Assembly: GCA_022800755.1 (NCBI GenBank) | Contig: JAAWQX010000030.1 | Span: 28,372-92,371 of the forward strand | DNA: 64,000 bases | Direction of reading: 5' to 3' | From: Oscillospiraceae bacterium | GTDB taxonomy: Bacteria > Bacillota > Clostridia > Oscillospirales > Oscillospiraceae | In this document: positions 1 through 23,876 of the stretch, one piece after another | Layout of the letters: every line of letters begins with the position of its first letter | Position numbering within the stretch: position 1 is the first letter of the stretch | Notes under the pieces: model-generated | What the model was told of the DNA's origin: nothing | Databases searched by the model: none | Seen by the model: only the letters and a program-made list of their open reading frames with translations | Translations under genes and position numbers: made by a program

Positions 1-2
1 CA

Positions 3-332
3 TCTTCCATCAATATCCGTTGCGCTTGCCCCAATTCAACCGTCTACGCTGCCAGCAAAGGCGCTATCTATGCACTCACCCGCGGCGCTTCCGTGGAACT
101 GGCAGAATACGGCATCCGCTGCAACTGTGTTGCTCCCGGCTCAACGGACACGCCGATGAATGGGGAAATCGCTCGAGGGCGTTTCCCGAACTACACCGCA
201 CCCAAGCTGTCTATTCCCAGAATGGCAGACCCCATGGAGATTGCCAATGTCGCCTGCTTCCTGGCTTCTGATGACGCTTCCTATGTCACCGGTGAAGTTT
301 ACTTCGCGGTCGGCGGCTGGGGCACGAAATAA
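3..332 (+). CDS. SDR-family oxidoreductase, C-terminal part (truncated by window start)
   Basis: Frame 3 reads SSINIRCACPNSTVYAASKGAIYALTRGASVELAEYGIRCNCVAPGSTDTPMNG...GEVYFAVGGWGTK; YxxxK motif; nearly identical to the next ORF. Confidence 0.9.
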   Translation, partial: SSINIRCACPNSTVYAASKGAIYALTRGASVELAEYGIRCNCVAPGSTDTPMNGEIARGRFPNYTAPKLSIPRMADPMEIANVACFLASDDASYVTGEVYFAVGGWGTK

Positions 333-386
333 GGCGCATATATTTGAAACCAACTTCGTTTGAGCAAGAAAGGACAGGAATCGATC

Positions 387-1142
387 ATGGCTTATTCAGA
401 CAGATTTGAAGGAAAAGTCGCCGTGGTGACTGGCGGTACCACTGGCATTGGCCGCGCTATCGCCAGACAGGTCGTGCGGGACGGCGGCAAAGTCGTTGTC
501 GGTGCGCGTCATGATGATCTGTTCGCGGAGATCGTTGCGGAACTCGGCAGTGACAAGTGCCACTGCCAGAAATGTGACGTCGGCATCCGTGCGGATGTAG
601 ACGCGCTGATCCAAGCCGCTTACGATAAATTCGGCGGTTTTGACATTATGTTTGGCAACGCCGGCGTGAACCTCATGAAGAGCTTCCTGGAGTTTACCGA
701 GGAAGAGACCGACACCATCATGAACACCAACTTCAAGGGCATGTTCAACTGCACCCAGGCGGCAGGTCTGGCCTTCGTGGCCCACGGGACCAAGGGTTCC
801 ATCGTGAACACGACTTCCATCAATATCCGCTGCGCCTGCCCCAACTCCACAGTTTATGCAGCCAGCAAGGGCGCTGTTTACGCCCTCACCCGCGGCGCTT
901 CCGTGGAACTGGCCGAGTATGGCATCCGCTGCAACTGCGTCGCCCCCGGCCCCACGGACACTCCCATGAACGGTGAGATCTCCCGGGCACGTTTCCCGAC
1001 CTACACAGCCCCGAAACTGTCCATTCCCAGGATCTGCGACCCCATGGAGATTGCCAATGTGGCGTGCTTCCTGGCTTCTGACGACGCTTCCTACGTCACC
1101 GGTGAGGTGTACTTTGCTGTAGGCGGCTGGGGTACCAAGTAA
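387..1142 (+). CDS. SDR-family oxidoreductase (BaiA-like 3-alpha/hydroxysteroid dehydrogenase type fold)
   Basis: TGGTTGIG Rossmann motif, NAGVN, YAASK, C-terminal VGGWGTK; ATG at 387. Confidence 0.9.
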   Translation: MAYSDRFEGKVAVVTGGTTGIGRAIARQVVRDGGKVVVGARHDDLFAEIVAELGSDKCHCQKCDVGIRADVDALIQAAYDKFGGFDIMFGNAGVNLMKSFLEFTEEETDTIMNTNFKGMFNCTQAAGLAFVAHGTKGSIVNTTSINIRCACPNSTVYAASKGAVYALTRGASVELAEYGIRCNCVAPGPTDTPMNGEISRARFPTYTAPKLSIPRICDPMEIANVACFLASDDASYVTGEVYFAVGGWGTK

Positions 1143-1153
1143 GGAGGCGCAGT

Positions 1154-1645
1154 ATGGTAACATTGGAAGAACTCGAACGGCGAATTCAGATTCAGGAAGA
1201 TATCCGGGCGATTGAACACCTGCAAGCTGATTACTGGGACTGTCTTGACCAAAAAGATTGGGTGGGTCTACGCGCCTGCTTCACCGACGATTTTGTCTTC
1301 ATGAACAAAACCACCGGCGGCCGCTATGAGGGCGGAGACGGCATGGTAGAGACCATGAAGGGCAAATTCACGGAACAGGTCACTTCCAGCCACCACGGGC
1401 ATCACCATTGGGTGGAGATCACCGGCGAGGCCACCGCCATCGGCCACTGGGCCCTGGAAGATGACCTCTGGGATTCCGTCAACGGCGGCGAGTTCGTGGG
1501 CAGAGCCCATTATGACAACAAGTATGTGAAAATCAACGGACGTTGGTACGTGGCCGAAATGGCGCTGACCTATCTCCGGGGAGAAGGCAGCATCAAAAAA
1601 CGGTACGATGACTGTGCCAACGCGTATAAAGTATTTCTGATGTGA
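1154..1645 (+). CDS. SnoaL/NTF2-like dehydratase-type protein, BaiE-like
   Basis: 163 aa; IRAIEHLQADYWDCLDQKDW...HHGHHHWVEIT...GHWALEDDLWD; NTF2/SnoaL pattern resembling BaiE. Confidence 0.75.
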   Translation: MVTLEELERRIQIQEDIRAIEHLQADYWDCLDQKDWVGLRACFTDDFVFMNKTTGGRYEGGDGMVETMKGKFTEQVTSSHHGHHHWVEITGEATAIGHWALEDDLWDSVNGGEFVGRAHYDNKYVKINGRWYVAEMALTYLRGEGSIKKRYDDCANAYKVFLM

Positions 1646-1655
1646 GGCGAATGCT

Positions 1656-2411
1656 ATGAAGTATACAAACGAACAATGGAAAGCACTGAGCGACCGCATT
1701 ATGCTCACCCTGCGACCCACGCAGCACCCCGTGGTAATGAAGTTTATCTCTACCCAGGAAGAGTTTGACACGGTCCCCAATCTGACCTACTGCCAGAACA
1801 AGGCCTCTACCTGCAAGCTCATCGGCATGGCCGCGCATTTCCAGGCAGCCTTTGCCCTGACCCGGGACCACTTCTCCGGCTACTACTGCGCCATGAACAA
1901 TGGGTGCATGGAAGTCAATCAGGAGTTCAAGGACGGCGCGATTCTTTACAAGGCCCCCACGCCCTGGCACCATGACCAAGAGGACGCGAAAAAGCACATC
2001 GCTTCCAACATGCAGTTCCTGCCCGAAACGCCCTACTTGGGCATCGTGTGCGCGCCGCTGTGCAACTGCGACATTCCGGAAGCCGACGTCATCGCCCTGC
2101 AGCTTCCCACCCAGGCGGCGTTCCATCTGCTGGCCGGTTATGTGGAGAGCAACTGGGAGCGTCTGGAGTTCCCCTTCAGCGGCGAATCCAACTGCGCGGA
2201 TACCTGGATGCGGACTTTGAAAGAGGGCAAGATCGGCGTATCTCTGGGCTGCCGCGGCGACCGCGCCACCGGCGCTCTGGCTTACGGCGAGGTGCGCGTT
2301 ACCATGACCACCGAGCAGCTGCTCAAGGCGCTGGACGGCGTGGATACCGTCACCAAAAACGGCATCCTTTACCCGTACAATCCCACCTGCCTGTATAAGG
2401 ACGCATTTTAA
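1656..2411 (+). CDS. DUF169-family protein
   Basis: 251 aa; LRPTQHPVVMKF...NKASTCKLIGMA...LGCRGDRATGAL motifs recalled from DUF169. Confidence 0.65.
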   Translation: MKYTNEQWKALSDRIMLTLRPTQHPVVMKFISTQEEFDTVPNLTYCQNKASTCKLIGMAAHFQAAFALTRDHFSGYYCAMNNGCMEVNQEFKDGAILYKAPTPWHHDQEDAKKHIASNMQFLPETPYLGIVCAPLCNCDIPEADVIALQLPTQAAFHLLAGYVESNWERLEFPFSGESNCADTWMRTLKEGKIGVSLGCRGDRATGALAYGEVRVTMTTEQLLKALDGVDTVTKNGILYPYNPTCLYKDAF

Positions 2412-2470: not shown

Positions 2471-2920
2471 TCAATATTTGAAAACGATCTCAACAGATTT
2501 TTCAAGTTCCTCGGACTGATATCCGTACCGCAAAATATCATGATCTTTCACACCATGGGTTCGGTCCAGCAAATCAGTATCCGTAAATCGGTCGCTGGCC
2601 ATAGCGCCCCAATCCCGCATATACAAAATCACAGGCGCCAGGAGCTTTCCCCGTTCCGACAAGCTATATTCTACCCGCAGCGGCTTTTCATCGTACTCCA
2701 TGCGTGTGATGATGCCGTCCCGCTCCAATTCCTGGAGCTGCTGCGTGAACATCTTATGGGAAATATCCCAAGGTACTCTTCGCTTCAGTTCTCCATAACG
2801 GCAGGTGTTGTCGGGTGCGTCATGGAGATACCAGATAATAAATGGCTTCCACTTTCCGCTGATCGCGGTAAAAGCGAAATTTAAACTGCAAGTCGCCAAA
2901 TCATGTCGTTTTTCCGCCAT
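2471..2920 (-). CDS. HxlR-family winged-helix transcriptional regulator
   Basis: AISGKWKPFIIWYLHD...GELKRRVPWDISHKMFTQQLQELERDGIITR...YSLSERGKLL. Confidence 0.9.
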   Translation of the reverse strand: MAEKRHDLATCSLNFAFTAISGKWKPFIIWYLHDAPDNTCRYGELKRRVPWDISHKMFTQQLQELERDGIITRMEYDEKPLRVEYSLSERGKLLAPVILYMRDWGAMASDRFTDTDLLDRTHGVKDHDILRYGYQSEELEKSVEIVFKY

Positions 2921-3074: not shown

Positions 3075-4466
3075 CTATAAATAAAACACGCCGGTATAAA
3101 TCCAAATCGGCACAGTGAGGACGACCGCGGACAAGCAAAGCGACAGATAAACCGCGCAGTATTTTGCCGCTTCTTTTTGTCCGATCATCTCGCCGTCCAG
3201 CGCGTAATACGCCGCCACATAAACGGGATTTTGATACATGAAAAACCAAGGGCAAATCACCGCATAAACCGTAAAACCGATCACCCAGGGATTGATTCCG
3301 AGACTGAGGGAGAGCGGAATCAGAAACACCATCGTGATATTTGCGGCCGCAAATTCCGAGGCAATGACAAACCGCAGCAGAACCGTAATAAGCCCCACGC
3401 AGATCACCAACAGCCACGGCGCGGAAGATACCCGGTAAAAAACAGGGCTGCAAAGTCCCACGATCCAATCATTGATGCCCAAAGCTTCAAAGGCCGGCGC
3501 AATCCCGAACAGGACCCCCACATAAATCACAGGACCCCAGTTCATCCCGGAATAAAATGTATCAGTACTCACAATTTTAAGCCCCAGCATTACACACATG
3601 GCGGCAATGGCCACAAGATGTGCCGGAAGCCCGTGCAGTTCCTCGGTGGTCCACAGCAGCATGGTGACCAGCACGACGGACAGCATCCGCCGTTCCGCGC
3701 CGGACATCGGGCCAAGCACTTCAAGCTGCCGGTCAATCTCGTCCTTGCCATGCGTTTCCGGGTCTTTTGGTTTGTAAAACAGCATCAACGCCGCAAAATT
3801 GGCAATGCTTACCAGTAAAAACCACGGCAAGGCAGCGACAAACCAACGCCACATTGTAAATCGGCCTGCAATTTCTGCCGGATATAATCCCAAAAATGTG
3901 TATCCCAGCACAGACGCGCTGATAAACAGCGGGCCGGCACTTCGCAGACCGGTAAGCATGGCGAGAAACAGGCCAGCCGCCGCTTTGCCGTTGGGCTCGT
4001 ATCCCATAGAATCGCTGATTCCCTTTGACAGCGGCGCCAAAATCGCAGATTTTGCACTCAGGTTGGGGATGAACGGCCCAATCACGGTGCCCACAGTAAT
4101 CAGCCCAAGGGCCTGGGCGGGGAAATTACCGGGAAAAATCTTCAGGATGTACAGGGATATCCGTTTCAGCAATCCGCTTTTGCTGATTCCCAAGCTTAAA
4201 GCAAAGGAAGACAGCAGTAGCCATACAGAAGATTCCGAAAACGCCGCAAGCATTGTCTTTGACGGGATCCCGCACACCAGAATAAACAGCACGCCCATGA
4301 TGAGGGCCGTGACAAATTCCGGTAAAATCTTAAAGATCCACCAAACAATTGCCCACAAAAGAATACCAAGGGCCATTTTAGCCGGGAGTTCCAAGCCGGG
4401 AATCGGCAAAAATGCCACGGCGATGCCAAGGAGAATTCCAATCATTGCGGCAATCGTTTGCTTCAT
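3075..4466 (-). CDS. DASS/SLC13-type anion:Na+ symporter
   Basis: 463 aa, multiple TM segments; SKTMLAAFSESSVWLLLSSFALSLGISKSGLLKR pattern. Confidence 0.8.
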   Translation of the reverse strand: MKQTIAAMIGILLGIAVAFLPIPGLELPAKMALGILLWAIVWWIFKILPEFVTALIMGVLFILVCGIPSKTMLAAFSESSVWLLLSSFALSLGISKSGLLKRISLYILKIFPGNFPAQALGLITVGTVIGPFIPNLSAKSAILAPLSKGISDSMGYEPNGKAAAGLFLAMLTGLRSAGPLFISASVLGYTFLGLYPAEIAGRFTMWRWFVAALPWFLLVSIANFAALMLFYKPKDPETHGKDEIDRQLEVLGPMSGAERRMLSVVLVTMLLWTTEELHGLPAHLVAIAAMCVMLGLKIVSTDTFYSGMNWGPVIYVGVLFGIAPAFEALGINDWIVGLCSPVFYRVSSAPWLLVICVGLITVLLRFVIASEFAAANITMVFLIPLSLSLGINPWVIGFTVYAVICPWFFMYQNPVYVAAYYALDGEMIGQKEAAKYCAVYLSLCLSAVVLTVPIWIYTGVFYL

Positions 4467-4481: not shown

Positions 4482-5810
4482 TCAGCCAACCAAGTGGTTC
4501 GGCAACCAGGTGACGATCTGCGGAAAGACCGTACACAAAATAAACACCGCAATCTGGATTCCCATAAACGGCCACACGCCTCGGATCGTCTCCGCCGTGG
4601 TGATATCATCTTTGGCAACACCCTGGAAATAGAAGATGGACGCCGCCATCGGCGGTGAGAGGAACGCAGTTTGCATGATGAGCGCCATCATGCTCAGGAA
4701 ATAGCAGGCATCAAATCCCGCCGCCGTGGCGATCGGCACAAAAATGGGAATGGTGATCATACACACCGCGATCCAGTCCATAAGGAAACCCAGCAGGAAG
4801 ATCACTGCCATCATCAGGACAAATACGCCCCACTTGCCCAGGGGCAAAGCGGCAAACAGGTTTGTTACCGCGGAGCTGCAGCCAAGCCGCATAAAGACCG
4901 TGACGAACAGATTGCCAAAGGCCGACACAGCATAGACCATGCCCGTGAGTTTGATGGATTCTATCAGGGTATTTTGTATGACTTCTTTATTGATGGAATG
5001 GGTAAACAGCGCAATGCAGAACGACGCCAAAACGCCCAATGCCGCCGCTTCCGTCGCAGGGCACCAGCCCAGCCAAATCGCGCCCAGAACCGAGAAAATG
5101 ACCAATGCTACCGGCAGAACATTTACAATGCAGCCTTTCAAAATCTCGCCTTTGGTGTGCTGCGCCAGTACCTCTTCCGGCAGCGGCGGCGCGTAGTCCT
5201 TTTTCACAATGGAAATGACTTTAATATAAACGATATAAGCAATACTCAGCAAAACACCGGGAACCATTGCGCCGTAAAACAGTTTGCCCACGGAAACATT
5301 CGCGGCGCTGCCCATAAACACCAGCATAATGCTGGGCGGAATCAAAATGCCGAGGGTGCCACCGGAAATGATGACGCCGGCCGTGAGGGATTTATTGTAT
5401 TTTGCCTCCAGCATCGGCTTGGTGAACAGCAGTCCCATCGATACGACGGACGCGCCCACGATGCCTGTAGTGGCCGCAAACAGGATGGCGATCATCGTCG
5501 CCGCCACCGCCATGCCGCCCCGCTGTTTTCCCAGAGCCAGAGACAGGTTGTCAAATAAGCGTCCCGCTACGCCGGATTGGTTGAGCAATTGCCCCATCAA
5601 CACAAACAGCGGCACCGCCAAAAGACCGTAATCCTTGCAGTATTTAAAAAGGCTGAAATAAATCAGCTGGAACACCCCGGGGCCCCAGAATGCTAAGCCG
5701 GAAATCAGTGCAACGCCGCCCAGCGCGGCAAACAGATAATATCCGGAAAAAATGAAAAATAAGAGCATCACGCCCATAATAACAGCAACTGTTAATCCGC
5801 TGACGGTCAT
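4482..5810 (-). CDS. dctM: TRAP transporter large permease (DctM-like)
   Basis: 442 aa; VPLFVLMGQLLNQSGVAGRLFD...ISGGTLGILIPPSIMLVFMG; hydrophobic. Confidence 0.9.
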   Translation of the reverse strand: MTVSGLTVAVIMGVMLLFFIFSGYYLFAALGGVALISGLAFWGPGVFQLIYFSLFKYCKDYGLLAVPLFVLMGQLLNQSGVAGRLFDNLSLALGKQRGGMAVAATMIAILFAATTGIVGASVVSMGLLFTKPMLEAKYNKSLTAGVIISGGTLGILIPPSIMLVFMGSAANVSVGKLFYGAMVPGVLLSIAYIVYIKVISIVKKDYAPPLPEEVLAQHTKGEILKGCIVNVLPVALVIFSVLGAIWLGWCPATEAAALGVLASFCIALFTHSINKEVIQNTLIESIKLTGMVYAVSAFGNLFVTVFMRLGCSSAVTNLFAALPLGKWGVFVLMMAVIFLLGFLMDWIAVCMITIPIFVPIATAAGFDACYFLSMMALIMQTAFLSPPMAASIFYFQGVAKDDITTAETIRGVWPFMGIQIAVFILCTVFPQIVTWLPNHLVG

Positions 5811-6397
5811 ACACGCTCCTCCTTTTTCACAGCCTGCAGTCTTTGGACCAGCTTCAGCACTTCAGCCACACCCTGTAAAATCAAAATCATCAGGCTGATT
5901 GCCATCACGATTTTTGTGGGCCAGATAGGTGCCTGCCAGGAGCCGGTGCTGATGAGTTCCATCGCCGCCACTGACGTGATGGCTTCCCGGATGCAAACAA
6001 CAGTACCGCAGAGCGTGAGAGGGAAAAACAGCAGTGCAAACAGGCACAAATCCAAAATACACTTCACCTTTTCCGGCAATTTCGCGTAAAAAGCGTCAAT
6101 TCGCACCATAGCGCCGTTTTTCATGGCATAGCCAAAGCTCAGCACCGCCGCGCAGCCACCGATGATGTAGCAGGTGCCGTATGCCCAGGTCGTCGGACTG
6201 TTGAATACGTTTCTGGCAATGATCTCATATAAAAATACCAGCACCAACGGAACCAGCAAATACGATGCGAAGCGTCCCGCGCCTTCCGAAATCAATTCAA
6301 TGCCACGGATAACTTTGTCCATCCAAGTGGGTGTGCTTTGCATCAAAGCGCCTTGTTCATCCATCGTCAACGCTCCTTCCATGAAAGATTGAAACAC
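5807..6397 (-). CDS. dctQ: TRAP transporter small permease (DctQ-like)
   Basis: Small 4-TM protein overlapping the DctM start; NVFNSPTTWAYGT...KNGAMVRIDAF. Confidence 0.8.
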   Translation of the reverse strand: MFQSFMEGALTMDEQGALMQSTPTWMDKVIRGIELISEGAGRFASYLLVPLVLVFLYEIIARNVFNSPTTWAYGTCYIIGGCAAVLSFGYAMKNGAMVRIDAFYAKLPEKVKCILDLCLFALLFFPLTLCGTVVCIREAITSVAAMELISTGSWQAPIWPTKIVMAISLMILILQGVAEVLKLVQRLQAVKKEERV

Positions 6398-6439: not shown

Positions 6440-7519
6440 TTATTTGCCCGCTTCTACCGCTTCGTTCCAGCTCTTCGTTGCCTGGATATAAGCTTGCTGG
6501 GAATTATAAATCTTCGCGAACAGAGGATTGCTCTCACACTTTTCCTGATAATAACGGGCACCAACTTCCTTGATTGTCTGGATGTCTTCCTCCGGCAGCG
6601 TATAAATGGTGAGCTTTCCCTGGTCTGCCAGCTCTTCAAACTTCAGCCAGGCTTCGGCGTTGGCAACACGGTCATCCGCCCAGTTCTTCGCCATCATCGC
6701 CAAACAGGAAGTTCTAATGATGTTTTGAATTTGCTCGTCCATGTCATTCCACACGTCCTTGTTGATGAGCAGCAGATACGCCGCGCTGGACTGGTGGATG
6801 CCGGGGACCGTCATATAAGGCGCCACTTCCTGGAAGCCGGCAGCCCAGTTGGTGGCGGGGCTGGAATACTCACAGCCGTCGATGGTGCCGCGAGACAGCG
6901 CCTCATAGCATTCGCCGCCGTCCATGGATACGACCGACACGCCCAAGATGGTCTCAATATTCGCCCAGTCGGAAACGCCGCGAATCTTCAGACCCTTCAT
7001 ATCGTTCAGGCAGGCAACGGGTTTGGTGGAGTGCAGGAAAATCTCGGAATCCACAACGCCGCAGGGGAAGGCAACCACATTGTCCGCCACTTCACTGATA
7101 ACCTCATTCAAAATCTGTTCGCCTTCACCGGCGATGTACCAGCCCATGTACTCATCAAACGTCATGCCCAGGGGCAGCGCGCTCAGGATTCCCAAGCTGT
7201 CGTCGGAAAAGTTCGTAGCCGTCATCTGTGCGCAGTCCAGCGTGCCGTTGGACACCGCCTGAAGCATGTCCACCGTCGGCACCACAGAGTTCGTCGCCAG
7301 GCAATCCATGGTCACCCGGCCGCCGGAACAATCCACAATCGTCTTAGATAAGTCAGACGCATACTGGTAAGGGCCGCCGCCGGCACTAAAACCGCATTGA
7401 TATACCAAGTTATACGCTTTTCCGCTGCTTGCGGTGCCTTCCGTCTGTACTGTGCAACCTGCAAAGCAAGTCATCATCAGGCACAAGGCCAGAGCCGCAG
7501 CTAAATATCTCTTTTTCAT
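6440..7519 (-). CDS. dctP: TRAP transporter substrate-binding lipoprotein (DctP-like)
   Basis: Lipobox CFAGC after MKKRYLAAALALCLMMT; GLKIRGVSD, DGCEYSSPATNW; start reset to 7519. Confidence 0.85.
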   Translation of the reverse strand: MKKRYLAAALALCLMMTCFAGCTVQTEGTASSGKAYNLVYQCGFSAGGGPYQYASDLSKTIVDCSGGRVTMDCLATNSVVPTVDMLQAVSNGTLDCAQMTATNFSDDSLGILSALPLGMTFDEYMGWYIAGEGEQILNEVISEVADNVVAFPCGVVDSEIFLHSTKPVACLNDMKGLKIRGVSDWANIETILGVSVVSMDGGECYEALSRGTIDGCEYSSPATNWAAGFQEVAPYMTVPGIHQSSAAYLLLINKDVWNDMDEQIQNIIRTSCLAMMAKNWADDRVANAEAWLKFEELADQGKLTIYTLPEEDIQTIKEVGARYYQEKCESNPLFAKIYNSQQAYIQATKSWNEAVEAGK

Positions 7520-7747
7520 AATAACAACTCCTTTACAACTTCCGCAAAATTGAACAAAAAAAGCACCTTTTTGTCCAATTTCCTCCCTTTTGCTCATATT
7601 ATAGGGGCTTGTCAGAAAAATGGCAATTACGCACTTTTTGGTTAGTACGAACAAAAAAGTGGGTAATTGACATTCTTCAATTGTGTAAGTGATAATAGTC
7701 ATACCATTAACATTTCTCACCAGCATACCAAAATTCAGGAGGCAATC

Positions 7748-9676
7748 ATGGAACTAAAAAAAGTATTCGAGCCCGGTAAAATCGGTACACTTAATATTAA
7801 AAACCGGCTTGTGGTCAGTGCGATGTCTTCCCATATGGGCAACGATGACGGTACCCCCAATGAGACCGTGAACGCATACCTTGTGGCAAAGGTCAAAGGC
7901 GGCTGGGGTCTGATCTTTACCGAAGACTTGGGTGTGACAAAAGATGCCGGAAGCGACCCCGTGGTCGGTTCCCTGTGGAATGACGACCAGATCTCCGCAT
8001 GGACGGAGACCGTGCGTCAGGTCCATGAGGCCGGCGGTCTTATGGGCGCGCAGCTCTACCACGCTGGGCGCCAGCGTTCCCTTAAGGCTTACGATACGCA
8101 TCCCGTTGCCCCCTCCGCCATCAAGGAACCCACAGAACCCTATGTGCCCCGCGCCCTGACCGTGGACGAAATCCACGATTTGGTCAAGGCCTTCGGGGAG
8201 GCTGCCGCGCGCGCTAAAAAATGTGGCTTTGACTGCGTGGAAATCCATGGCGCACATGGCTATCTTATCAATCAGTTTATGTCCACCTTCTCCAATAAGC
8301 GGACCGACGAATACGGCGGCACACTGAACAATCGGATGCGCTTTGCCCTGGAGGTCATCGCCGCGGTACGGGAGGCCGTCGGCCCGGATTTCCCCATTTT
8401 GTTCCGCTTCAACACCTGTGACTATGTGGAAGGCGGCATTGAAATTCCCGAAGCCATCGTCATGGCGAAAATGCTGGAAGAAGCCGGCGTGGATGCCCTG
8501 CACTGCACTCAGGGCATGTTCACCTCCAAGCAGAGCATCATTGCCCCGGGCTTCATTCCCGTGATGCACTACGCGGAAAACGCTGCCGCCATCAAGGCCG
8601 CGGTGAAGATCCCTGTGCTGGCGGTGGGCCGTTATAATGATATCTTCATGTCCGAAGCCATGCTGCGGGACAACAAGGCCGACTTCGTCGTCATGGCCCG
8701 TGCGTCTCTGGCCGACCCCGAACTGCCCAACAAAGCCAAGGAAGGCCGCATCGACGACATCATCCACTGCATCGGCTGCGACCAGGGCTGCACCGGCGAG
8801 ACCGCCGTGGGTAACGCGGTCAATTGCATCGCCAACCCCCATACCTGCCGGGAGACTGTCTACGACCTCTCCCCCGTGGCGAATCCCAAAAAAGTGTTCA
8901 TTGCCGGTGCCGGTGTGTCCGGCCTGTCCGCCGCCTACGGTGCCGCGGAGCGCGGCCACAAGGTCACCATTTTTGAGGCCAGCGATGAGATCGGCGGCCA
9001 GTGGTTGGCGGCGATGGCGCCTCCGGGAAAATCCGAGTACGCCTCTTTGATCGTCAACTACCGCAACGTCATCCGCAGATACGGCGTTGAGGTACGGATG
9101 AACATCCCCCTCACCAAGGCCATCGTGGAAGCGGAAAAGCCTGACGCGGTGATCTTGGCCACCGGCAGCAATCCCATGTTCCTGCCTATCCCGGGTCTGG
9201 ACAACCGGGAGTATGTCAAAACCGCGATTGAAGTCCTCCGAGGCCGCACCCTATACGGCAAGAATGTGGTGGTGGTGGGCGGCGGCATGACCGGCGCGGA
9301 GACCGCCGTGTTCCTGGCGGTCCAGGGCTGCAACGTGACCATGATCGAAATGGCGCCGGACATCATCACTGACGCGGTGGCCCAGCCCAGAGCCTGCCTG
9401 CTGGAGCACCTGAAAAAGTACAATGTCAAGGTCCACACCCACACCAAACTCACCAAGGTGGGCACGGATTCTGTGTTCGCCGAGGAATACGGCGAGCCTG
9501 TGGAATTCAAGCATATCGACATGGTCGTCAATGCCATGGGCGTGCGCAGCAACAACCCGCTCCAGGCGGAACTGGAAGGCTGCGGCTGCAAAGTCGTAGT
9601 GGTGGGCGACGCCAGCAGCACTAAGAACGGATACAAAAACATCCGGGAAGGCTTCGACGCAGGCAACGCTATCTGA
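7748..9676 (+). CDS. Old-yellow-enzyme NADH:flavin oxidoreductase with 4Fe-4S and FAD/NAD domains (BaiCD/BaiH-like)
   Basis: N-terminal FEPGKIGTLNIKNRLVVSAMSSHM; CIGCDQGCx11C cluster motif; IAGAGVSGLSAAYGAAERGH FAD-binding. Confidence 0.9.
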   Translation: MELKKVFEPGKIGTLNIKNRLVVSAMSSHMGNDDGTPNETVNAYLVAKVKGGWGLIFTEDLGVTKDAGSDPVVGSLWNDDQISAWTETVRQVHEAGGLMGAQLYHAGRQRSLKAYDTHPVAPSAIKEPTEPYVPRALTVDEIHDLVKAFGEAAARAKKCGFDCVEIHGAHGYLINQFMSTFSNKRTDEYGGTLNNRMRFALEVIAAVREAVGPDFPILFRFNTCDYVEGGIEIPEAIVMAKMLEEAGVDALHCTQGMFTSKQSIIAPGFIPVMHYAENAAAIKAAVKIPVLAVGRYNDIFMSEAMLRDNKADFVVMARASLADPELPNKAKEGRIDDIIHCIGCDQGCTGETAVGNAVNCIANPHTCRETVYDLSPVANPKKVFIAGAGVSGLSAAYGAAERGHKVTIFEASDEIGGQWLAAMAPPGKSEYASLIVNYRNVIRRYGVEVRMNIPLTKAIVEAEKPDAVILATGSNPMFLPIPGLDNREYVKTAIEVLRGRTLYGKNVVVVGGGMTGAETAVFLAVQGCNVTMIEMAPDIITDAVAQPRACLLEHLKKYNVKVHTHTKLTKVGTDSVFAEEYGEPVEFKHIDMVVNAMGVRSNNPLQAELEGCGCKVVVVGDASSTKNGYKNIREGFDAGNAI

Positions 9677-9743: not shown

Positions 9744-10445
9744 ATGATCAGCAGATGTGGTCTTTTAAAGAAAAAAGCCGGCATGTCCACGGAAGAGTTC
9801 CGGGATTTCTGGTTCAACGTTCACGGTCCGATCGCCTGCCATATGAAAAACATGCGGCATTACCAGCAGCACCTGGTCATCGACAGAGAGCAGCGCCATA
9901 AACTCGCCCGCGGGCCTTTTGAGATCGACGCTTACTCCGAGCTTATCTTTGATGATATTCACGATATGGAAGAAGGTGTGGCTTCCCTGAACGGTGCCGG
10001 CGCCGACGACCTGCCCAACTTCGTTGACGACTGCAAACTCGTCATATTCGTTAAGAAAATAGATACCCGCGTTCCCGAAGAATTCAAGGGCCAAAAGCTC
10101 ATCAAGCGGATGTCTCTGCTCAGCCGCGCCGATGGGATGTCCGCCGAGCAGTTCCAGCAGGAATGGTGGGAAACCTATTCCGCGCTGCTGAAGAAGGTCC
10201 CCGGATACTTGGGCTACGCCCAAAACCTGGTCATCGACCGGATCATAGACGGCAAACATGTACCTTATGGGCAACTCCCCATCGACGGTATGGTTGAGTT
10301 CTGGTTCAAGGACATGGACAGTTTCAACCAGTTCTACGCTTCCGAGGAATTTGCGAAAACCTCAGAGCATGGAAAGACCTTCCTCGGCAACGTGACCACC
10401 TATCTGATGGAAACCGCCGACTACCCCATGCCTGCCGATCAATAA
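9744..10445 (+). CDS. EthD-domain-like (dimeric alpha/beta barrel) protein, two repeats
   Basis: GLLKKKAGMSTEEFRDFWFNVHGPI...HYQQHLVIDR repeated as LLSRADGMSAEQFQQEWWETYS...GYAQNLVIDR. Confidence 0.75.
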   Translation: MISRCGLLKKKAGMSTEEFRDFWFNVHGPIACHMKNMRHYQQHLVIDREQRHKLARGPFEIDAYSELIFDDIHDMEEGVASLNGAGADDLPNFVDDCKLVIFVKKIDTRVPEEFKGQKLIKRMSLLSRADGMSAEQFQQEWWETYSALLKKVPGYLGYAQNLVIDRIIDGKHVPYGQLPIDGMVEFWFKDMDSFNQFYASEEFAKTSEHGKTFLGNVTTYLMETADYPMPADQ

Positions 10446-12239: not shown

Positions 12240-13004
12240 TCAGATGCAGGTCCAGCCGCCATCCACACCGATAATCTGGCCAGTGATATAGCTGCTCTCT
12301 TCTGCCGCGAGGAACACAATGGCAGAATCCAGCTCGCCAGGATATCCGTGACGCTTCATAGGACACTTGCTTTTCAAGAAGTTATCGAACTTCTCGTTAC
12401 CAACAGGAGATACTTCAGAGGCGAAGAAGCCTGGAGCGATGGCGTTGCATGTGATGTTGTATCTGGCCCATTCTGCACCCAGTTGGCGAGTCAGGTTGCA
12501 CACAGCACCCTTGGATGCGGCATATTCGGGGATACCCATACCGTATTCGATGTCCATGCCTACGGAACCCAGCATAGAGGAGATATTGATCATGCGGCCA
12601 TAGCCGTTTTTGATCATTGCCTTGCCAAACTCACGGCAACAGTAGAACACACCGTTGATATTGACATTCATAGTCTTGTGCCACTTCTCGTCGGGCAGAT
12701 CTTCGGTATTGCCGCAATTGCCGCCGCCAGCACAATTCACCGCGATATCGATCTTGCCGAAGTCTGCCACGATCTTCTCGGCCACTTCTGCCACCAGTGC
12801 GCTGTCGGTAACGTCGCAGTAGTAATAACCGGTTTTTACGCCGCTTTCTCTGGTGATGGACTCCGACACTTCCTTCAGCATTTCCACACGCCGGGCAATC
12901 ACAACCACCGTAGCGCCCTGACGCCCTAGTGCGTGTGCAAATTGGACACCCAGACCAGAAGAGCCACCGGTCACCACTGCTACTCTGCCTGTCAAATCAA
13001 ACAT
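12240..13004 (-). CDS. SDR-family oxidoreductase
   Basis: MFDLTGRVAVVTGGSSGLGVQFA; YAASKGAV; GVDGGWTCI. Confidence 0.92.
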   Translation of the reverse strand: MFDLTGRVAVVTGGSSGLGVQFAHALGRQGATVVVIARRVEMLKEVSESITRESGVKTGYYYCDVTDSALVAEVAEKIVADFGKIDIAVNCAGGGNCGNTEDLPDEKWHKTMNVNINGVFYCCREFGKAMIKNGYGRMINISSMLGSVGMDIEYGMGIPEYAASKGAVCNLTRQLGAEWARYNITCNAIAPGFFASEVSPVGNEKFDNFLKSKCPMKRHGYPGELDSAIVFLAAEESSYITGQIIGVDGGWTCI

Positions 13005-13056
13005 TTAAAGTTCCTCCTTAATATTTTTTCAAGTCTGTTTAAAACAAAGAATCAAA

Positions 13057-14991
13057 TCAGTTGATGCTCAGCGCTGCGCAAAGACCGTCACGAATGGCGT
13101 CACCGGACTTGGCAGCTTTCACGCAGTCACCAACGAAGATGGTCTTTTTGAAGTACTTCTCACGCAGCTTGTCTGCCAGTTCCCGGTTGGGAGTCTGTCC
13201 AAGCGCGGAAATGATTTGATCCCCTTCAATCAGTTCTTCTCCAGTGTCTTGGTTGATTACCACAACACCTTGGGCGGTGATTTCCTTCACCCGACACCCA
13301 CAGCGCAAGGTCACACCAGCCTCTGCCATGGACTCTTTCAGGGATACTTGGTTCATCATAATTACGTCCGTTGCCACATCGTTCTTCATTTCAATCACGG
13401 TAGCTTTCCGCCCCAGTGCGGTCACCGCTTCCAGCGCAAAGTCGCAGCCGGACATACCTCCGCCGCAGACGATGATGTTCTGACCGGTGACCAGTTCGGG
13501 TTTCAAGTGAGCATCGATCACACCCAGAACGTTGTCACCCTTGATACCAGGGATAGACATCTCCAGGGGCTTGGAACCGGTAGCGCAGACAATGCGGTAG
13601 CACTGGGACAGAACGGGATCGTCAATACTGAGATCGGCTTTCACCACTTCCACGTCCAGCTTCTGCAGTTGCGCCTTATAATACTCGATCAGCTTGCGGA
13701 TCTGGATTTTGAAGTCGGCGGTGGCTGGAGCGTTCAGTGTGCCGCCCAGCTCGTTTCTTTCGTACAGCTTCACATGGTGTCCACGGATGGCACAGGCCCT
13801 TGCGGCTTCCAGACCGCCAGGACCACCGCCGATCACTACCACATTCTTGGGCTGGTCAACCTTGGTCAGGCGCATAGCATGTTCGTCGCCGGCGGCGGGA
13901 TTCACAGCGCAACTAAGCTTGGAACGATAGCGCAGGATGCGGCCGATACATTCCTCATTGCAGCGCATACACGGCCGGACGTCTTCCGGACGTTCCTCCA
14001 ATAGCTTGTTACCGATCTCTGGATCGGCAATCAGCTGACGACCAAAAATCACAAAGTCGGCATCGCCGCCCTCGATCATTTTCACGGCGCTTTCCGGGGT
14101 GTGGGAACCGGCGTTCAGCAAGGGTTTGTCCGTAGCTTCTCTGGCCGCCCGGCAGACATACTCCATGCAGGCCTCGCCCATATACATGGGGGGATACACA
14201 TATTTAATGGTCTCATAGCAGCCGGCGTCGACGTCAAATGCATCCACACCGTGTTCGTCCAGTACTTTCAGCAAGACCTTGCTGTCCTCCAAGGTCCGAC
14301 CTCCAGGAATGCGATGATCCATAGACAGACGGAAGATCACCGGGAAATCATCACCGGCCCCACGATGGATGGCATCCACAATGTCTAGCGCAAACCGGGC
14401 GTTCTTCTTGGGAGTTCCACCGTAGTCGTCGGTTCTGTGGTTCCAGATGGGAGAGATAAACTGGTCGATGAGGTAACCCACATGGGCATGAACTTCAATG
14501 CCGTCGAATCCGGCGTCACGCACCAGACCAGCACTATATTCCCACTGTTTCATGATCTCCTCAATCTCTTCCACTGTCAGGGGATGGCATTTCACGTTGG
14601 AGTCCCAGACCCAAGTGTTTTCGGAAGAAGAATAGGGCGGTTTGCCGTGAATCTCGTTGGCATTCCTGCCGGTACCGCAACTAAGCTGGGTAAAGACCTT
14701 GCAGCCGTGGGCGTGACAGCGGTTGGTCAGCGCTCGGGCAGAGGGGACGATGTGGTGGTGATCCCAGTAGTGACCCAGAACGCCCTGGCCCAAATCAGCA
14801 GTCAGATAGCCCTGGCCCACGATGATCATGCCGGTACCGCCTTTCGCGCGCTCTTCAAAATAGGCGATCTCGTCTTCGGAGAAACTCCCGTCCCGGTTGG
14901 ACATCAGCGTGCCCATAGCGGACATAACGATGCGGTTCTTAATCTCACAGTTGCCGATCTTAAACGGTGTAAACAGCGTATCGTAGTTCAT
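13057..14991 (-). CDS. Old-yellow-enzyme flavin oxidoreductase with 4Fe-4S cluster (BaiCD/BaiH-like)
   Basis: MNYDTLFTPFKIGNCEIKNRIVMSAMGT; CMRCNEECx12C; GGGPGGLEAARACAIRGH. Confidence 0.9.
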   Translation of the reverse strand: MNYDTLFTPFKIGNCEIKNRIVMSAMGTLMSNRDGSFSEDEIAYFEERAKGGTGMIIVGQGYLTADLGQGVLGHYWDHHHIVPSARALTNRCHAHGCKVFTQLSCGTGRNANEIHGKPPYSSSENTWVWDSNVKCHPLTVEEIEEIMKQWEYSAGLVRDAGFDGIEVHAHVGYLIDQFISPIWNHRTDDYGGTPKKNARFALDIVDAIHRGAGDDFPVIFRLSMDHRIPGGRTLEDSKVLLKVLDEHGVDAFDVDAGCYETIKYVYPPMYMGEACMEYVCRAAREATDKPLLNAGSHTPESAVKMIEGGDADFVIFGRQLIADPEIGNKLLEERPEDVRPCMRCNEECIGRILRYRSKLSCAVNPAAGDEHAMRLTKVDQPKNVVVIGGGPGGLEAARACAIRGHHVKLYERNELGGTLNAPATADFKIQIRKLIEYYKAQLQKLDVEVVKADLSIDDPVLSQCYRIVCATGSKPLEMSIPGIKGDNVLGVIDAHLKPELVTGQNIIVCGGGMSGCDFALEAVTALGRKATVIEMKNDVATDVIMMNQVSLKESMAEAGVTLRCGCRVKEITAQGVVVINQDTGEELIEGDQIISALGQTPNRELADKLREKYFKKTIFVGDCVKAAKSGDAIRDGLCAALSIN

Positions 14992-15320
14992 TCTTTTATC
15001 TCCTTATTTTTATTTTTTAATGTATCCGGTTTTTCTACACATGTCTCCAAAATGGTCTCGTCTGGTTTCTATTGACAGCGGTTTGCATCTATGTTATGCT
15101 TACATCTTGTATGGTCCTTTAAAGCATACACACGAATTAATAGAGCACGGGTTATTACATTTAATACACGTGTATTGTTTTTCGTGATTCAAGCATAAAT
15201 CTTTGATGAATGATTGTCAATAGCGGAGTTTGTTTTTGTCGAGAAAATCCAAACCCAGCCTGATGACTTTGTGCTTTTTTCACCGAAAAATCATACACTG
15301 AAAAGGTCGGTGTATCAAAA

Positions 15321-15908
15321 ATGGAGAAGAGAAAGGGCACACGGGAAAAAATCGTGGATGCTGCCATTGAGCTGTTCAAAAACAATCCTTACGACCAGGT
15401 GACAGTCAAGGAAATCTGCACATTGGCTGGCGTCACACGCAATAGTTTTTATTACTATTTTGACGGCAAGGATACCATTTTTGACGCCATTGGCGATTGG
15501 TGCAGCCGCACAGCCAAACAGCGTCTGCCGGAGGTGTTCAGCGCCAGAAGCACTTATCAACAGGTGTGGGAGATTTATCGTCTGTATTTGGAGACCCAGA
15601 TCGACCTGGGTCCAGAGATTATGAACCATGTTTGCATTTCTCGGACAACAAAAGGCAACTCGGATTATTACAGTTACATCGACAATACTCTGGAAGGTTC
15701 TATCACACGACTGATTCGGGCATCTCAGGAGTCTGGAATCATCCGCAATGATCAGGATCCTCTCCGCTTGTTGTGGACGTCCTATGCCATCGTGCGGGGC
15801 ATTAACATCAAATGGTGTTTCTTGTGGGGCGAATGTGATCTCATCGAGGAGACCAGGGCAGCCTTGGACACCCTGTTCATGCCGAAAGAGGGATACGAAC
15901 TGTATTAA
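15321..15908 (+). CDS. TetR-family regulator
   Basis: GTREKIVDAAIELFKNNPYDQVTVKEICTLAGVTRNSFYYYFDGKDTIFD HTH. Confidence 0.92.
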   Translation: MEKRKGTREKIVDAAIELFKNNPYDQVTVKEICTLAGVTRNSFYYYFDGKDTIFDAIGDWCSRTAKQRLPEVFSARSTYQQVWEIYRLYLETQIDLGPEIMNHVCISRTTKGNSDYYSYIDNTLEGSITRLIRASQESGIIRNDQDPLRLLWTSYAIVRGINIKWCFLWGECDLIEETRAALDTLFMPKEGYELY

Positions 15909-15928
15909 ATTGCTGAAATCATGGATAT

Positions 15929-15976
15929 AAGCAAGTTGGACCAGCGAACCGAAAGGCACGCTGGTCCAACTTGCTT
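15929..15976. terminator. Long perfect hairpin terminator
   Basis: 18-bp perfect arms AAGCAAGTTGGACCAGCG / CGCTGGTCCAACTTGCTT. Confidence 0.75.
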
Positions 15977-16113
15977 GAGAGGAAGAATTGGGAGAGTAAA
16001 GGAGGTTGTAGAAGGTGAAAAATATAGATTATAAAGGAGTGAATTTTTGTCCTATTCAAATAAGACGGTACCGTCTGCCTTATTGACTGAGGCCAGATGA
16101 GAGAAATTATTAT

Positions 16114-16878
16114 TTAGGTGCACGTCCATCCACCATCGATGACGACGTTGTTGCCGGTCATGTAGGAGTTTTCTTCGCAGGTCATAAAAATGATTGCAGC
16201 GTCCAGCTCATGGTCATAGCCGTTACGCTTCATGGGGCACCAGTCGTTGATGAAGTCAACGAACCACTCCTGACCCACAGGAGATTGCTCGGATGCGAAG
16301 AATCCGGGACTGAGGGTGTTGACGGTGATGCCGTACTGTGCCCATTCGTTGGCCAGCTGTCGGGTAAAATTGATCACGGCACCCTTGGATGCGGAGTATT
16401 CGGAGATACCTTTCCCGAAGCTGCTGTCCAGAGCAATCATACCCAGCATAGAAGCCACATTGACGATACGGCCATAGTGGTTCTCCCGCATCAGCTTGCC
16501 GAACTCTCTGCACATCAAAAACAGACCGGTGACACACACATCCAGTGTGGCTTGCCATCTTTCCAGCGCCAGATCCATGGCCCAGTCATTGTGACCCTCG
16601 CCAGCGCAATTAATCAGAATGTCGCAGCGGCCAAATTCTTTTTCCACAGTCTCACGGGCAGCAATGACCTGATCCTCTTTGGTCACATCGCAACGGACGG
16701 CAATAGCCTTCACACCGTACTTTTCGGTGAGCATCTTAGCGTTTTCCACCAAAATCTCATAGCGGCGGGCCATCAGGACAATCTCGCAGCCCCGGGCGGC
16801 CAGTGCGTTGGCGCACAAAACACCAAGGCCGGAAGAACCGCCGGTAATGACAGCAACTCTACCATGATAATCAAACAT
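16114..16878 (-). CDS. SDR-family oxidoreductase
   Basis: MFDYHGRVAVITGGSSGLGVLCA; YSASKGAV; VIDGGWTCT. Confidence 0.92.
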   Translation of the reverse strand: MFDYHGRVAVITGGSSGLGVLCANALAARGCEIVLMARRYEILVENAKMLTEKYGVKAIAVRCDVTKEDQVIAARETVEKEFGRCDILINCAGEGHNDWAMDLALERWQATLDVCVTGLFLMCREFGKLMRENHYGRIVNVASMLGMIALDSSFGKGISEYSASKGAVINFTRQLANEWAQYGITVNTLSPGFFASEQSPVGQEWFVDFINDWCPMKRNGYDHELDAAIIFMTCEENSYMTGNNVVIDGGWTCT

Positions 16879-16950
16879 ACTATTGTCCTCCTTAGTATGA
16901 CAGTTTGTTCTTATCGCTTATCTGTAAACGTCCTTTTCCTGATGGCCCGT

Positions 16951-18015
16951 TTACATGATGACGATAGGCTTGATAACGCTTTCGTCCTTGGGCTCTTCCA
17001 TCATGTTGAAGCCTTCTTCGATCTTCTCGAAGCCATGGAGTTCTTGAGTGATAAGCAAGGTGGGGTCCAAACGACCGGTTTTGATGAGAGCCATCAGATT
17101 TTCCAGACGGTATCTGCCGCCGGCACACAGGCGACCGGTGAGCGTCACATGGTTCACCAAGGTGCCTGCATCGGCAACAGCAATGTTGAAGCTCTTGCTG
17201 AAATCATAGCCGGCAATGTTGGAAATCACACCACCGCACTTCACCATGCGATAAGCGTCGTTGACGGTATCCTCAGTGCCGCCAGCGATGATGACCTTGT
17301 CCACTTTCTGATGATTGGTCAACTCCATGATTTGCTCAACAATGTCGCCTTCAGTGTAGTCCACCACGTCAGTGGCGCCATACTGTTTTGCCAATTCCTT
17401 GGTCAGTTTTCTGTGACCCACACCGATCAAACGTCCAGCGCCACGCAGGGCGGTACCCGCTACACTCATCAGACCCACAGGACCAATGCCGATAACCACA
17501 ACGGTGTCACCAAACTGAATGTTGGCGCCTTCTACACCGGAGAATCCGGTGGTGATCATGTCACCCACCAGCCCAGCGGCCTTGATGGACACACCATCGG
17601 GAACCACGGCCAGGTTCATGTCGGCGTCAGGGATGATGAAGTATTCACCAAAGGTACCGTCCAGCTGGGAAGACAGATACCTCCCGCCCAGAAAACCGCC
17701 GGCATGCTCATGCAGCCCCTCTGCGATCTCCTTGCCGCGCCAAATGGGTGTGACTGCAGGAATCGCTACAATATCACCGACCTTGATATCAGTGACCATG
17801 GAGCCGACTTTCTCCACACGGCCCACACCCTCGTGACCGAGGATACGGTTGGGCCATGCCTGTCTGCGATGTGCGTTGTGAACATCGGACGTGCAGGGCA
17901 GCACTGCCACTGGAGAGCAAAGTGCCTCAAACGGACCAGGCTCGGGGATCTCTTTCTCCATCCAGCCCCAGCTGACAGTGGGTTCGATTACGCCGTAGCC
18001 TTTCATCGTTGCCAT
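16951..18015 (-). CDS. Zn-dependent medium-chain alcohol dehydrogenase
   Basis: CTSDVHN, GHEGVGRVEKVGS, VVVIGIGPVGLMSVAGTALRGAG. Confidence 0.88.
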   Translation of the reverse strand: MATMKGYGVIEPTVSWGWMEKEIPEPGPFEALCSPVAVLPCTSDVHNAHRRQAWPNRILGHEGVGRVEKVGSMVTDIKVGDIVAIPAVTPIWRGKEIAEGLHEHAGGFLGGRYLSSQLDGTFGEYFIIPDADMNLAVVPDGVSIKAAGLVGDMITTGFSGVEGANIQFGDTVVVIGIGPVGLMSVAGTALRGAGRLIGVGHRKLTKELAKQYGATDVVDYTEGDIVEQIMELTNHQKVDKVIIAGGTEDTVNDAYRMVKCGGVISNIAGYDFSKSFNIAVADAGTLVNHVTLTGRLCAGGRYRLENLMALIKTGRLDPTLLITQELHGFEKIEEGFNMMEEPKDESVIKPIVIM

Positions 18016-18074
18016 AGTGATTTCTCCTTTTCAAAAAATTTTGTTTATTATTTTTGGACATATGAGATGAAATA

Positions 18075-20024
18075 TTACTCGACCTGCATACCTGCATAGA
18101 AGCCGCTGCGGATCGCCTTACCGCTCTTGCCGACCTCAACGCAGTCGCCTACACAGATGAGTTTTTTGTTGTACCGCTTCTTCAATTCGTCGGTGAGCTC
18201 ACGGTTGGGGGCCATGCCGAAGGCTGCCACGATGGTGTCCGCCTCGATCAGCTCGGACTCACCATTCTCGTTCACGATCATAACGCCTTCGTCCTTGATC
18301 TCAGCTACGCGGCAATTGGTGCGGGTTACCACACCGGCGTCGGCCAGATAGATCTTCAGCGAATGCGCATTGATAAAGACCATGTCGGAAGCTATTTCGG
18401 GCTTCATTTCGATGATGGTGCAGTCTTTTCCGTACTCTGTAGCCATCTCCAAAGCAAAGTCGGAACCGGACAGGCCGCCTCCACAAACTGCGATTCGCTT
18501 GCCTTCGATAGCAGCGGGGTTTCGATGAGCATCCTTGATGTCGATAACCTTCTTGTTATCTATGCCGGGGATGGAAGGCAGGACGGAATGTGCGCCGGTG
18601 GCAGCAATGATGGCGTCGGCATCGACCAGTACGGAGTTGTCAATAGAGATTTCTTCCTTGACCACATTCACATTCAGCTTTCTCATCTGGGTCTTGTAAT
18701 AATTGATTAATGCCTTCAGCCGAGTCTTGAACTGAGCCTGTGCGGGAAGGTTGAGCGTGCCGCCGAGTTCATTGGGTTCGTACAGGGTGACCTTGTGACC
18801 CTTCAGCGCCGCAACGCGTGCTGCCTCCATCCCGCCGGGGCCACCGCCGATGACAACCACATTTTTGGGCTGCTCGGTTTTAACGATACGGAAGGCGTGT
18901 TCTTCGTTGGCTGCTGGATTGACAGAACAGGAAAGCTTAGTGTAGCGACCCCAGATGCGGCCGATGCACTCCTCGTTGCAGCGGATGCAGGGACGGACGT
19001 CCTCTTCCCGATTCTCCATTAGTTTTCTGGGCAAATAGGGATCCGCAATCAGGGGGCGGCCCAGCATAGCAAAGTCTGCTCTGCCGGACTCAATCAGACG
19101 CTTTGCCGTCTTGGGTGTGTGGTTGCCGGCATTCATAATAGGCTTGTCCGTTGCTTCCCGGGCGGTGTCACAGACATATTCCATGCAAGCGTCGCCACGG
19201 TAAAAGGTGGGATACACGAAGTCGGGATGTTCGTAGCAACCGCAGTCTACATCGAAAGCATCCACGCCGTGGTCTCCCAAGATCTTCAGCAGACGCTTGC
19301 TGTCTTCCAGTGTTCTTCCACCGGGAATACGGTGATCCATGGAGATACGGTAGATGACGGGCATATCCCTGCCGGCGCCACGCTTGATGGCATCCAGGAT
19401 TTCCAGAGCGAACCTGGCACGGTTCTCATCGCTACCACCGTACTCGTCTTCACGCTTGTTCCACAAAGGGGTGAGGAACTGGTCAATGATGTACCCCACA
19501 TGGCCGTGAACCTCGATGGCGTCAAATCCGGCAGAGGCAGCAATTTCGGCGGCCAACTCCCAAGACTTCATGATGTCCTTAATCTCTTCGATTGTGAGGG
19601 GACGGCACAGGATGTCGGGATTAAACACGGCAGGGACAGCGGATGCGGAAAAGGGCACACCGCCACACTGACTGGGATGGGCATTCCGCCCTGTGCCGCT
19701 GGACAACTGGGCAATGGCCTTGCAGCCGTAGCAATGCATCCGCTCAGTCATGCCGGTAAGGTGGGGGATAATGCGCTTACTGTCGAAGTAGGTGCCGTAA
19801 ATACCCTGGGCTAGTTTGGGGGTCAGGTATTGGGAAGAAGTGATGATCGCACCAACACCGCCTTTTGCACGTTCCTCAAAGTAGGTGGCAAGGGTATCGG
19901 ACACGGAACCATCCATCTGAGCAGCGTAGGTTCCCATAGGCGCCATAATCAGGCGGTTCTTGATCTCCATCTTGCCAATGGAAAACGGTGTGAACAAGGA
20001 ATCAAAATTCATTTCGTCGTACAT
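18075..20024 (-). CDS. Old-yellow-enzyme flavin oxidoreductase with 4Fe-4S cluster (BaiCD/BaiH-like)
   Basis: MNFDSLFTPFSIGKMEIKNRLIMAPMGT; CIRCNEECx12C; GGGPGGMEAARVAALKGH; start reset to 20024 behind GGAGG. Confidence 0.9.
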   Translation of the reverse strand: MYDEMNFDSLFTPFSIGKMEIKNRLIMAPMGTYAAQMDGSVSDTLATYFEERAKGGVGAIITSSQYLTPKLAQGIYGTYFDSKRIIPHLTGMTERMHCYGCKAIAQLSSGTGRNAHPSQCGGVPFSASAVPAVFNPDILCRPLTIEEIKDIMKSWELAAEIAASAGFDAIEVHGHVGYIIDQFLTPLWNKREDEYGGSDENRARFALEILDAIKRGAGRDMPVIYRISMDHRIPGGRTLEDSKRLLKILGDHGVDAFDVDCGCYEHPDFVYPTFYRGDACMEYVCDTAREATDKPIMNAGNHTPKTAKRLIESGRADFAMLGRPLIADPYLPRKLMENREEDVRPCIRCNEECIGRIWGRYTKLSCSVNPAANEEHAFRIVKTEQPKNVVVIGGGPGGMEAARVAALKGHKVTLYEPNELGGTLNLPAQAQFKTRLKALINYYKTQMRKLNVNVVKEEISIDNSVLVDADAIIAATGAHSVLPSIPGIDNKKVIDIKDAHRNPAAIEGKRIAVCGGGLSGSDFALEMATEYGKDCTIIEMKPEIASDMVFINAHSLKIYLADAGVVTRTNCRVAEIKDEGVMIVNENGESELIEADTIVAAFGMAPNRELTDELKKRYNKKLICVGDCVEVGKSGKAIRSGFYAGMQVE

Positions 20025-20138
20025 GTTGACCTCCAAACAATTTATTTTATATTTAGCGTTTGACATTTTTACTTATATTGCTTATATTAAAAGATATATT
20101 TCAAAAGAACACTTTTTAATTAAAAGGATGAATCAGAA

Positions 20139-20741
20139 ATGATAGAACACAAACCATTAAAAGAGAATCAAAAGGATACTCGCATGAAAATCCTCAATTC
20201 TGCCCTCGAGCTTTTCAACGAGTATGGCTACGACGAAACCACCATCCCAATGATCTGTCAGAAAGCCGGTGTTTCAAAAACCACGCTACACTACTATTTC
20301 CCCAAGAAGCAGGATCTGTTCGTGGATATGTACAACGATTTTGAAGAGTTGTATTCCGATAATTTTTATCGCATTGTGGAACAAGAAACCTTCAGCAAGC
20401 AAATCTGGGAAGTGTTCCACATCATGTGTGAAGGGGATCTGTTCTACGGTGCCAGCGTATCTCAACAGTATTTCATCAACCGGCTGAAAGAACACTCCCA
20501 ACAGGATTTCATTAAGAACATCTATCACAAGAAAATGCTCACCGCCGTGATTCGCTCGGCCCAGAATTCCAATCAGATCCGTAATCAGACGGACCCGGAG
20601 GTTCTGGCCGAAGTACTGTCGTTTGCTCTGCGAGGTGTGATCGTGACATGGGCCATTGAGAACGGCACGATCGATCTTTTGGAAGAGGGCAAGCGTGTGG
20701 TGTCTTCCATCATCGATCCCATGCCTGGGTTTGAGATTTAG
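20139..20741 (+). CDS. TetR-family regulator
   Basis: DTRMKILNSALELFNEYGYDETTIPMICQKAGVSKTTLHYYFPKKQDLF. Confidence 0.92.
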   Translation: MIEHKPLKENQKDTRMKILNSALELFNEYGYDETTIPMICQKAGVSKTTLHYYFPKKQDLFVDMYNDFEELYSDNFYRIVEQETFSKQIWEVFHIMCEGDLFYGASVSQQYFINRLKEHSQQDFIKNIYHKKMLTAVIRSAQNSNQIRNQTDPEVLAEVLSFALRGVIVTWAIENGTIDLLEEGKRVVSSIIDPMPGFEI

Positions 20742-20879
20742 TACTAGGGTTCTAATATTTTAGATCTTTAGTCCGCGTTTTATAGTATTATATCATTACC
20801 CGAAAAATTGTCAAGGGGGGATTCCGCATTTTTTCGAGAATGTTTCAGTTCCCCGAAAACTCTTTTACTGATGATTTTA

Positions 20880-20916
20880 AAAAAAGGGCGGCCTTGAGAA
20901 AGGCAGCCCTTTTTGT
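20880..20916 (-). terminator. Intrinsic terminator of permease operon
   Basis: AAAAAGGGCGGCCTTGAGAAAGGCAGCCCTTTTT hairpin. Confidence 0.65.
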
Positions 20917-20924
20917 ATGGGATG

Positions 20925-22256: not shown

Positions 22257-22498
22257 TAGAATTCCTCACTTTCTTTTATTGTTTGGGTTTTACCATCACC
22301 GCCCGACAACCACTGCAGTCTGCGGTTGCCGGGCATTCCAGCACAACAGAATAATACTATAGTTCTAATTTTATTGCGCTAGAATACTATGACTTGCTTA
22401 CAACGATACCATAAATTAAAAAATTGTCAAGCGGCAGAACGTATTCGTTTCTTAACTATGTTACAAGTGCACAAATTCTGCCGTCATTTTTTGTCGAC

Positions 22499-23833: not shown

Positions 23834-23876
23834 CTCTTTATCTCCTTTACTTTTCTTTGTGCATTGTGAAAAGAAG

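Follow-up and report, generated by a model that had tools for sequence, protein, structure and literature searches.

A BaiE-like SnoaL_4 protein of an Oscillospiraceae bacterium: plausible dehydratase of a conserved SDR and OYE gene cassette

Does a protein that keeps the catalytic residues of BaiE, the bile acid 7alpha-dehydratase, at about 30% identity also share its function? The question is raised by a 64,000-nucleotide stretch from the genome of an Oscillospiraceae gut bacterium (hereafter the window), in which a first-pass annotation recognised a BaiE-like residue pattern in a SnoaL protein and took it to suggest an active dehydratase rather than a binding protein. We consider here the gene and its neighbours, the residues shared with BaiE, and the distribution of the gene relative to bile-acid genes.

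The SnoaL gene and its neighbours

The open reading frame is intact and encodes a SnoaL_4 product of 163 amino acids, which passes the Pfam cut-off for this family (PF13577; 77.6 bits vs 24, E 1.1e-21). It lies 3' of two tandem SDR genes (Table 1) and is under strong purifying selection when compared with its 91% identical orthologue (dN 0.050, dS 1.19, dN/dS 0.04). The top three PDB matches in phmmer are all BaiE (E 4.5e-17 to 7.6e-16, with ~30–31% identity to the BaiE structures), and the first match to any other protein appears at E 0.065; judged by sequence, homology to BaiE is beyond doubt. In a deep tree the orthologues form a clade of their own (support 100/99), the sister group of which is not settled because of long branches.

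The first-pass comparison with BaiE carried over to the predicted structure, at the level of the fold at which it was made. AlphaFold2 (five models, 26 locus sequences) gave a model with a mean pLDDT of 89, and the top four Foldseek matches to it in the PDB are BaiE (TM 0.79–0.83, E ~1e-13 to 1e-14). Next in the ranking is a putative scytalone dehydratase (E 3.6e-10), then LinA; LdpA was also returned. These more distant proteins share the NTF2 fold, and a related His-Asp dyad has been described in them, but their substrates and reactions are different.

Table 1. Features of the window around the SnoaL gene
Feature	Position	Strand	Remark
SDR1, 3' part	1..332	+	Complete gene at L005:15577-16332; proteins of the SDR1/SDR2 tandem 92% identical
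SDR2, NAD(P)-dependent short-chain dehydrogenase	387..1142	+	
Ribosome-binding site AAGGAGG	1141..1147	+	Overlaps stop codon of upstream SDR gene; read directly
SnoaL_4 (NTF2-fold) BaiE-like putative dehydratase	1154..1645	+	Y27, D32, H80 triad; D103, N51, R142
DUF169 (COG2043) protein	1656..2411	+	
HxlR-type regulator	2471..2920	-	
DASS-type anion symporter	3075..4466	-	
TRAP transporter large permease DctM	4482..5810	-	
TRAP transporter small permease DctQ	5807..6397	-	
TRAP substrate-binding protein DctP	6440..7726	-	True start probably downstream
OYE1, BaiCD-like flavin ene-reductase	7748..9676	+	Oxidored_FMN + Pyr_redox_2
EthD + MmlI two-domain protein	9744..10445	+	

The flavoprotein gene OYE1 is 6 kb from the SnoaL gene, past oppositely oriented genes. 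Its product scores below the curated cut-off for BaiCD (NF041087; 548 vs 825 bits), whereas the BaiCD of a positive control, the bai operon L061 described below, passes at 850.5, and OYE1 is thus ruled out as BaiCD. Neither BaiB, BaiF nor a true BaiCD was found among the neighbours of the SnoaL gene, with L061 as the bai operon control. The EthD/MmlI protein is related to an isomerase. The DUF169 gene also accompanies the SnoaL gene in L008, L009 and L010, which with the window makes four loci; a match of its product to an Fc-receptor-like PDB entry (E 1.4e-4 over 26 residues) was treated as spurious.

Other features of the window can be recorded alongside. The SDR1/SDR2 pair is a tandem duplication (window 1-1142 with L005:15577-16332; 85% identity in DNA), single in the related locus L010. 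Three further long OYE flavoproteins are encoded at 12240-26689, each near an SDR gene, together with two open reading frames of 443 and 444 aa (20925-23833) which have no Pfam match at 1e-6. A type I restriction endonuclease subunit is encoded at 36093-38864.

Residues kept and changed relative to BaiE

The comparison uses BaiE residues which we take to be the catalytic triad (Tyr30/Asp35/His83), together with Tyr54, presumably a substrate-contact residue important for substrate binding, and Arg146, to which we likewise ascribe a functional role. Residue numbers were verified by taking off the tag of the PDB chains, presumably 19 residues long, in line with a His run printed at 7–12. The sequence used as C. 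scindens BaiE matches the 4l8p chain over the printed stretch, with one early residue differing; Foldseek labels that chain C. hiranonis, which leaves the residue comparison unaffected.

Alignments by phmmer, MAFFT and profile-profile comparison (hhalign probability 99.8%) concur in pairing Y27 with Y30, D32 with D35, H80 with H83 and D103 with D106, with no gap from Y27 to D103. The spacing of Y27-W-D-C-L-D32 read by the first-pass annotation as that of Tyr30/Asp35 was thereby reproduced by all three methods, as was its placing of HWALEDD on the Asp106 segment. Its third pairing, of HHGHHHWVEI with the His83 segment MGHTPEI, was right in equating H80 with H83 but loose in register: H80-H-G-H83 corresponds to H83-M-G-H86 of BaiE, so that MGHTPEI begins one residue past the catalytic His.

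How much the triad says about function depends on how widely it occurs. It is intact in every orthologue of the window protein, and a set of 26 rows shows no exception at Y27 and at least 90% conservation at D32 and H80. The MAFFT set held 23 SnoaL_4 rows (six of the window group, four BaiE and 13 others, taken from the genus, the family around it and genomes of distant Bacillota), and the full Y/D/H triad is present in 12 of the 13 others, the exception being a protein of genome G002, although most of these triad-bearing proteins are only ~20% identical. The triad is therefore a family-wide feature which argues for an enzyme rather than for bile acids, and is not diagnostic of BaiE; as a sign of BaiE function it was ruled out, since distant SnoaL_4 subgroups keep it. 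More restricted are W99-x-L-x-D103 and the G-H83 pair, both common to the window group and the BaiE branch.

Of the two further BaiE positions, that of Tyr54 is Asn (N51) in all seven orthologues, in a register that the profile-profile alignment also gives, and the equivalent of Arg146 is uncertain, falling on Y140 by MAFFT and on R142, two residues later, by the profile alignment, via a two-residue gap. The loss of Tyr54 and an uncertain Arg146 might suit a binding or accessory protein, and some NTF2-fold proteins are indeed not catalytic (PMC13101464). We consider a non-catalytic role highly improbable, however, given the complete triad in every orthologue and the strong purifying selection on the gene. 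Changed specificity has a precedent in SteC of Comamonas testosteroni, a C12beta-hydroxyl dehydratase of NTF2 fold ~28% identical to BaiE, and thus a BaiE relative acting at another ring position (PMC13101464), albeit from an aerobic steroid degrader.

The main rival to a dehydration mechanism is that the same His-Asp machinery serves another type of NTF2-fold reaction (e.g. that of an isomerase, decarboxylase or lyase). NTF2-fold enzymes with a related dyad also carry out dehydrochlorination, decarboxylation and lyase chemistry (PMC11476836), structures like LinA, LdpA and scytalone dehydratase appear in the same fold search, and the isomerase-related EthD/MmlI protein lies in the neighbourhood. 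We nonetheless regard this as unlikely: the Foldseek E-value of BaiE is some four orders of magnitude better than that of such relatives, the W-x-L-x-D motif is shared with BaiE, and with SDR and OYE partners a dehydration would fall naturally between an oxidation and a reduction.

Recurrence of the cassette and distribution of bile-acid genes

Six other MAG loci carry SnoaL proteins 71–91% identical to that of the window, and in all six an SDR and an OYE gene lie within ~6 kb of the SnoaL gene. Across these loci the genes are arranged in three ways, and several retain EthD and TRAP genes as well. The cluster of L008 is almost the same as that of the window, and L009 and L010 hold parts of it, rearranged; these four cassettes are closely related and do not count as independent. 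In L011 and L013 the SDR, SnoaL and OYE genes lie next to each other, and upstream of them are genes for an AMP-binding ligase, a CoA-transferase and an MFS protein (identified by Pfam in L011 and by matching gene starts in L013). Three SDRs, an OYE and two EthD genes are found in L012, which belongs to a Coriobacteriia MAG. As 13 OYE genes occur in the 2.0 Mb of the window's own genome (G000), one OYE neighbour alone is weak evidence, and the weight therefore falls on the repeated association across differing arrangements. The cassette is not described in the titles or abstracts of the literature searched.

A parallel count for SnoaL_4 gives six genes in G000; of 16 relatives sampled from outside its genus, 14 have none.

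Bai-like genes are found elsewhere in this genome. Contig C17 of G000 (L064:7239-16001, L067:465-1838) carries a row of genes made up of BaiB, which exceeds its curated cut-off (665.7 vs 650), an AraC-like regulator, judged by eye, three BaiA-like SDRs and two BaiF-like CoA-transferases; neither BaiE nor BaiCD lies beside them, and the row is a partial bai-like operon of the genus. A further pair, a BaiA-like SDR whose top PDB match is a bile acid 3alpha-HSDH (183 bits) and a BaiF-like CoA-transferase 45% identical to its L061 counterpart, shares a contig with the window SnoaL gene and lies ~13 kb upstream of it (L005:1864-3847). The control itself, L061 (genome G041, contig C42), comes from another genus of the same family and has a bai operon of BaiB, BaiCD, BaiE, BaiA, BaiF and a BaiH-like gene; its BaiB (728 vs 650) and BaiCD (850.5 vs 825) both pass the curated cut-offs, and its BaiE shares 70% identity with the reference.

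The bai-like genes of G000, and the fact that BaiE (PDB 4l8o, 4l8p, 4leh, 4n3v) is the closest solved relative of the window protein, would suit a dispersed bai pathway in which that protein acts as the bile-acid 7alpha- or 7beta-dehydratase (the role of BaiE or BaiI). Several observations make such a role quite improbable. A closer BaiE relative is encoded on contig C1 of G000 (L006:4732-5283, hereafter C1:4732): this SnoaL_4 protein has the same triad, is 43–45% identical to BaiE, keeps Arg146, has Phe for Tyr54, and outscores the window protein as a BaiE relative within G000 (E 5.7e-33 vs 4.6e-16). Its gene is flanked by two ApbA/PanE-like genes, judged by eye. All four genomes sampled from the genus have BaiB, and the three most complete of them also have the C1-type protein, whereas the window SnoaL gene is missing from two BaiB-bearing congeners, G148 and G205, but occurs in G117 and G231, in which BaiB was not found. 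MAG incompleteness limits any single absence (G205 is 65% complete); the occurrence of the gene is nevertheless uncoupled from that of BaiB. The replacement of Tyr54 and the score of OYE1 below the BaiCD cut-off, which the L061 operon passes, point the same way. Neighbourhood and co-occurrence rule the gene out as a member of the G000 bai-like set. Distribution, neighbours and the changed residue all make it unlikely that the window SnoaL serves the genus as its bile-acid dehydratase. C1:4732 is the better candidate for that role in G000 and the genus.

A proposed role for the cassette

The window protein thus resembles BaiE in family, fold, triad, the D106 equivalent and its SDR and OYE partners, and differs from it at Tyr54, in the genes alongside and in distribution. 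The first-pass proposal of an active enzyme is favoured, indirectly, by the complete triad, purifying selection, the BaiE-like predicted fold and the conserved SDR and OYE neighbourhood, and dehydration, the more specific part of the proposal, is what the analogy suggests; an active dehydratase is plausible. The tie to BaiE function which that proposal implied is not supported, given a non-discriminating triad, Asn in place of Tyr54, a better candidate on C1 and no co-occurrence with BaiB. We lean, with moderate confidence, towards an NTF2-fold dehydratase capable of catalysis, which would belong to a SnoaL_4 subfamily of its own and carry out the middle step of its cassette.

In NTF2-fold dehydratases, His and Asp act as general base and acid, Tyr contacts the carbonyl and hydroxide is expelled. 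Drawing on the analogy with BaiE and other enzymes of this kind, we infer a reaction, an order of steps and a role for transport as follows. An acidic cyclic hydroxy compound would enter via the TRAP (or DASS) transporter, and the SDRs would oxidise an alcohol of it to a ketone. The window SnoaL would then remove water, the departing hydroxyl being beta or vinylogous to that ketone, with H80 and D32 as the acid-base pair and Y27 as a proton relay or carbonyl contact, and OYE1 would reduce the resulting enone. The net result would be removal of a ring hydroxyl by a bai-like route on a different substrate, with no dedicated CoA ligase beside the window cassette. Our best reading is accordingly that of the dehydratase in an oxidise-dehydrate-reduce cassette, with a substrate that is probably acidic and cyclic.

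More tentatively, the SDR, SnoaL and OYE cassette, often found with EthD and TRAP genes, might represent an undescribed anaerobic pathway of ring dehydroxylation that Oscillospiraceae-type MAGs share with Coriobacteriia; its substrate would be a cyclic acid from host or diet, outside the classical bile acids. We hold this as a possibility rather than an expectation.

BaiE-like sequences serve to mark the formation of secondary bile acids, and a published survey accepted BaiE-like matches from 30% identity, then checked gene context (PMC9426597). As the protein of the window shows, an intact triad does not suffice for a BaiE call at 30% identity. Its gene marks a separate, conserved cassette, and C1:4732 is indicated as the better bile-acid candidate gene of the genus.
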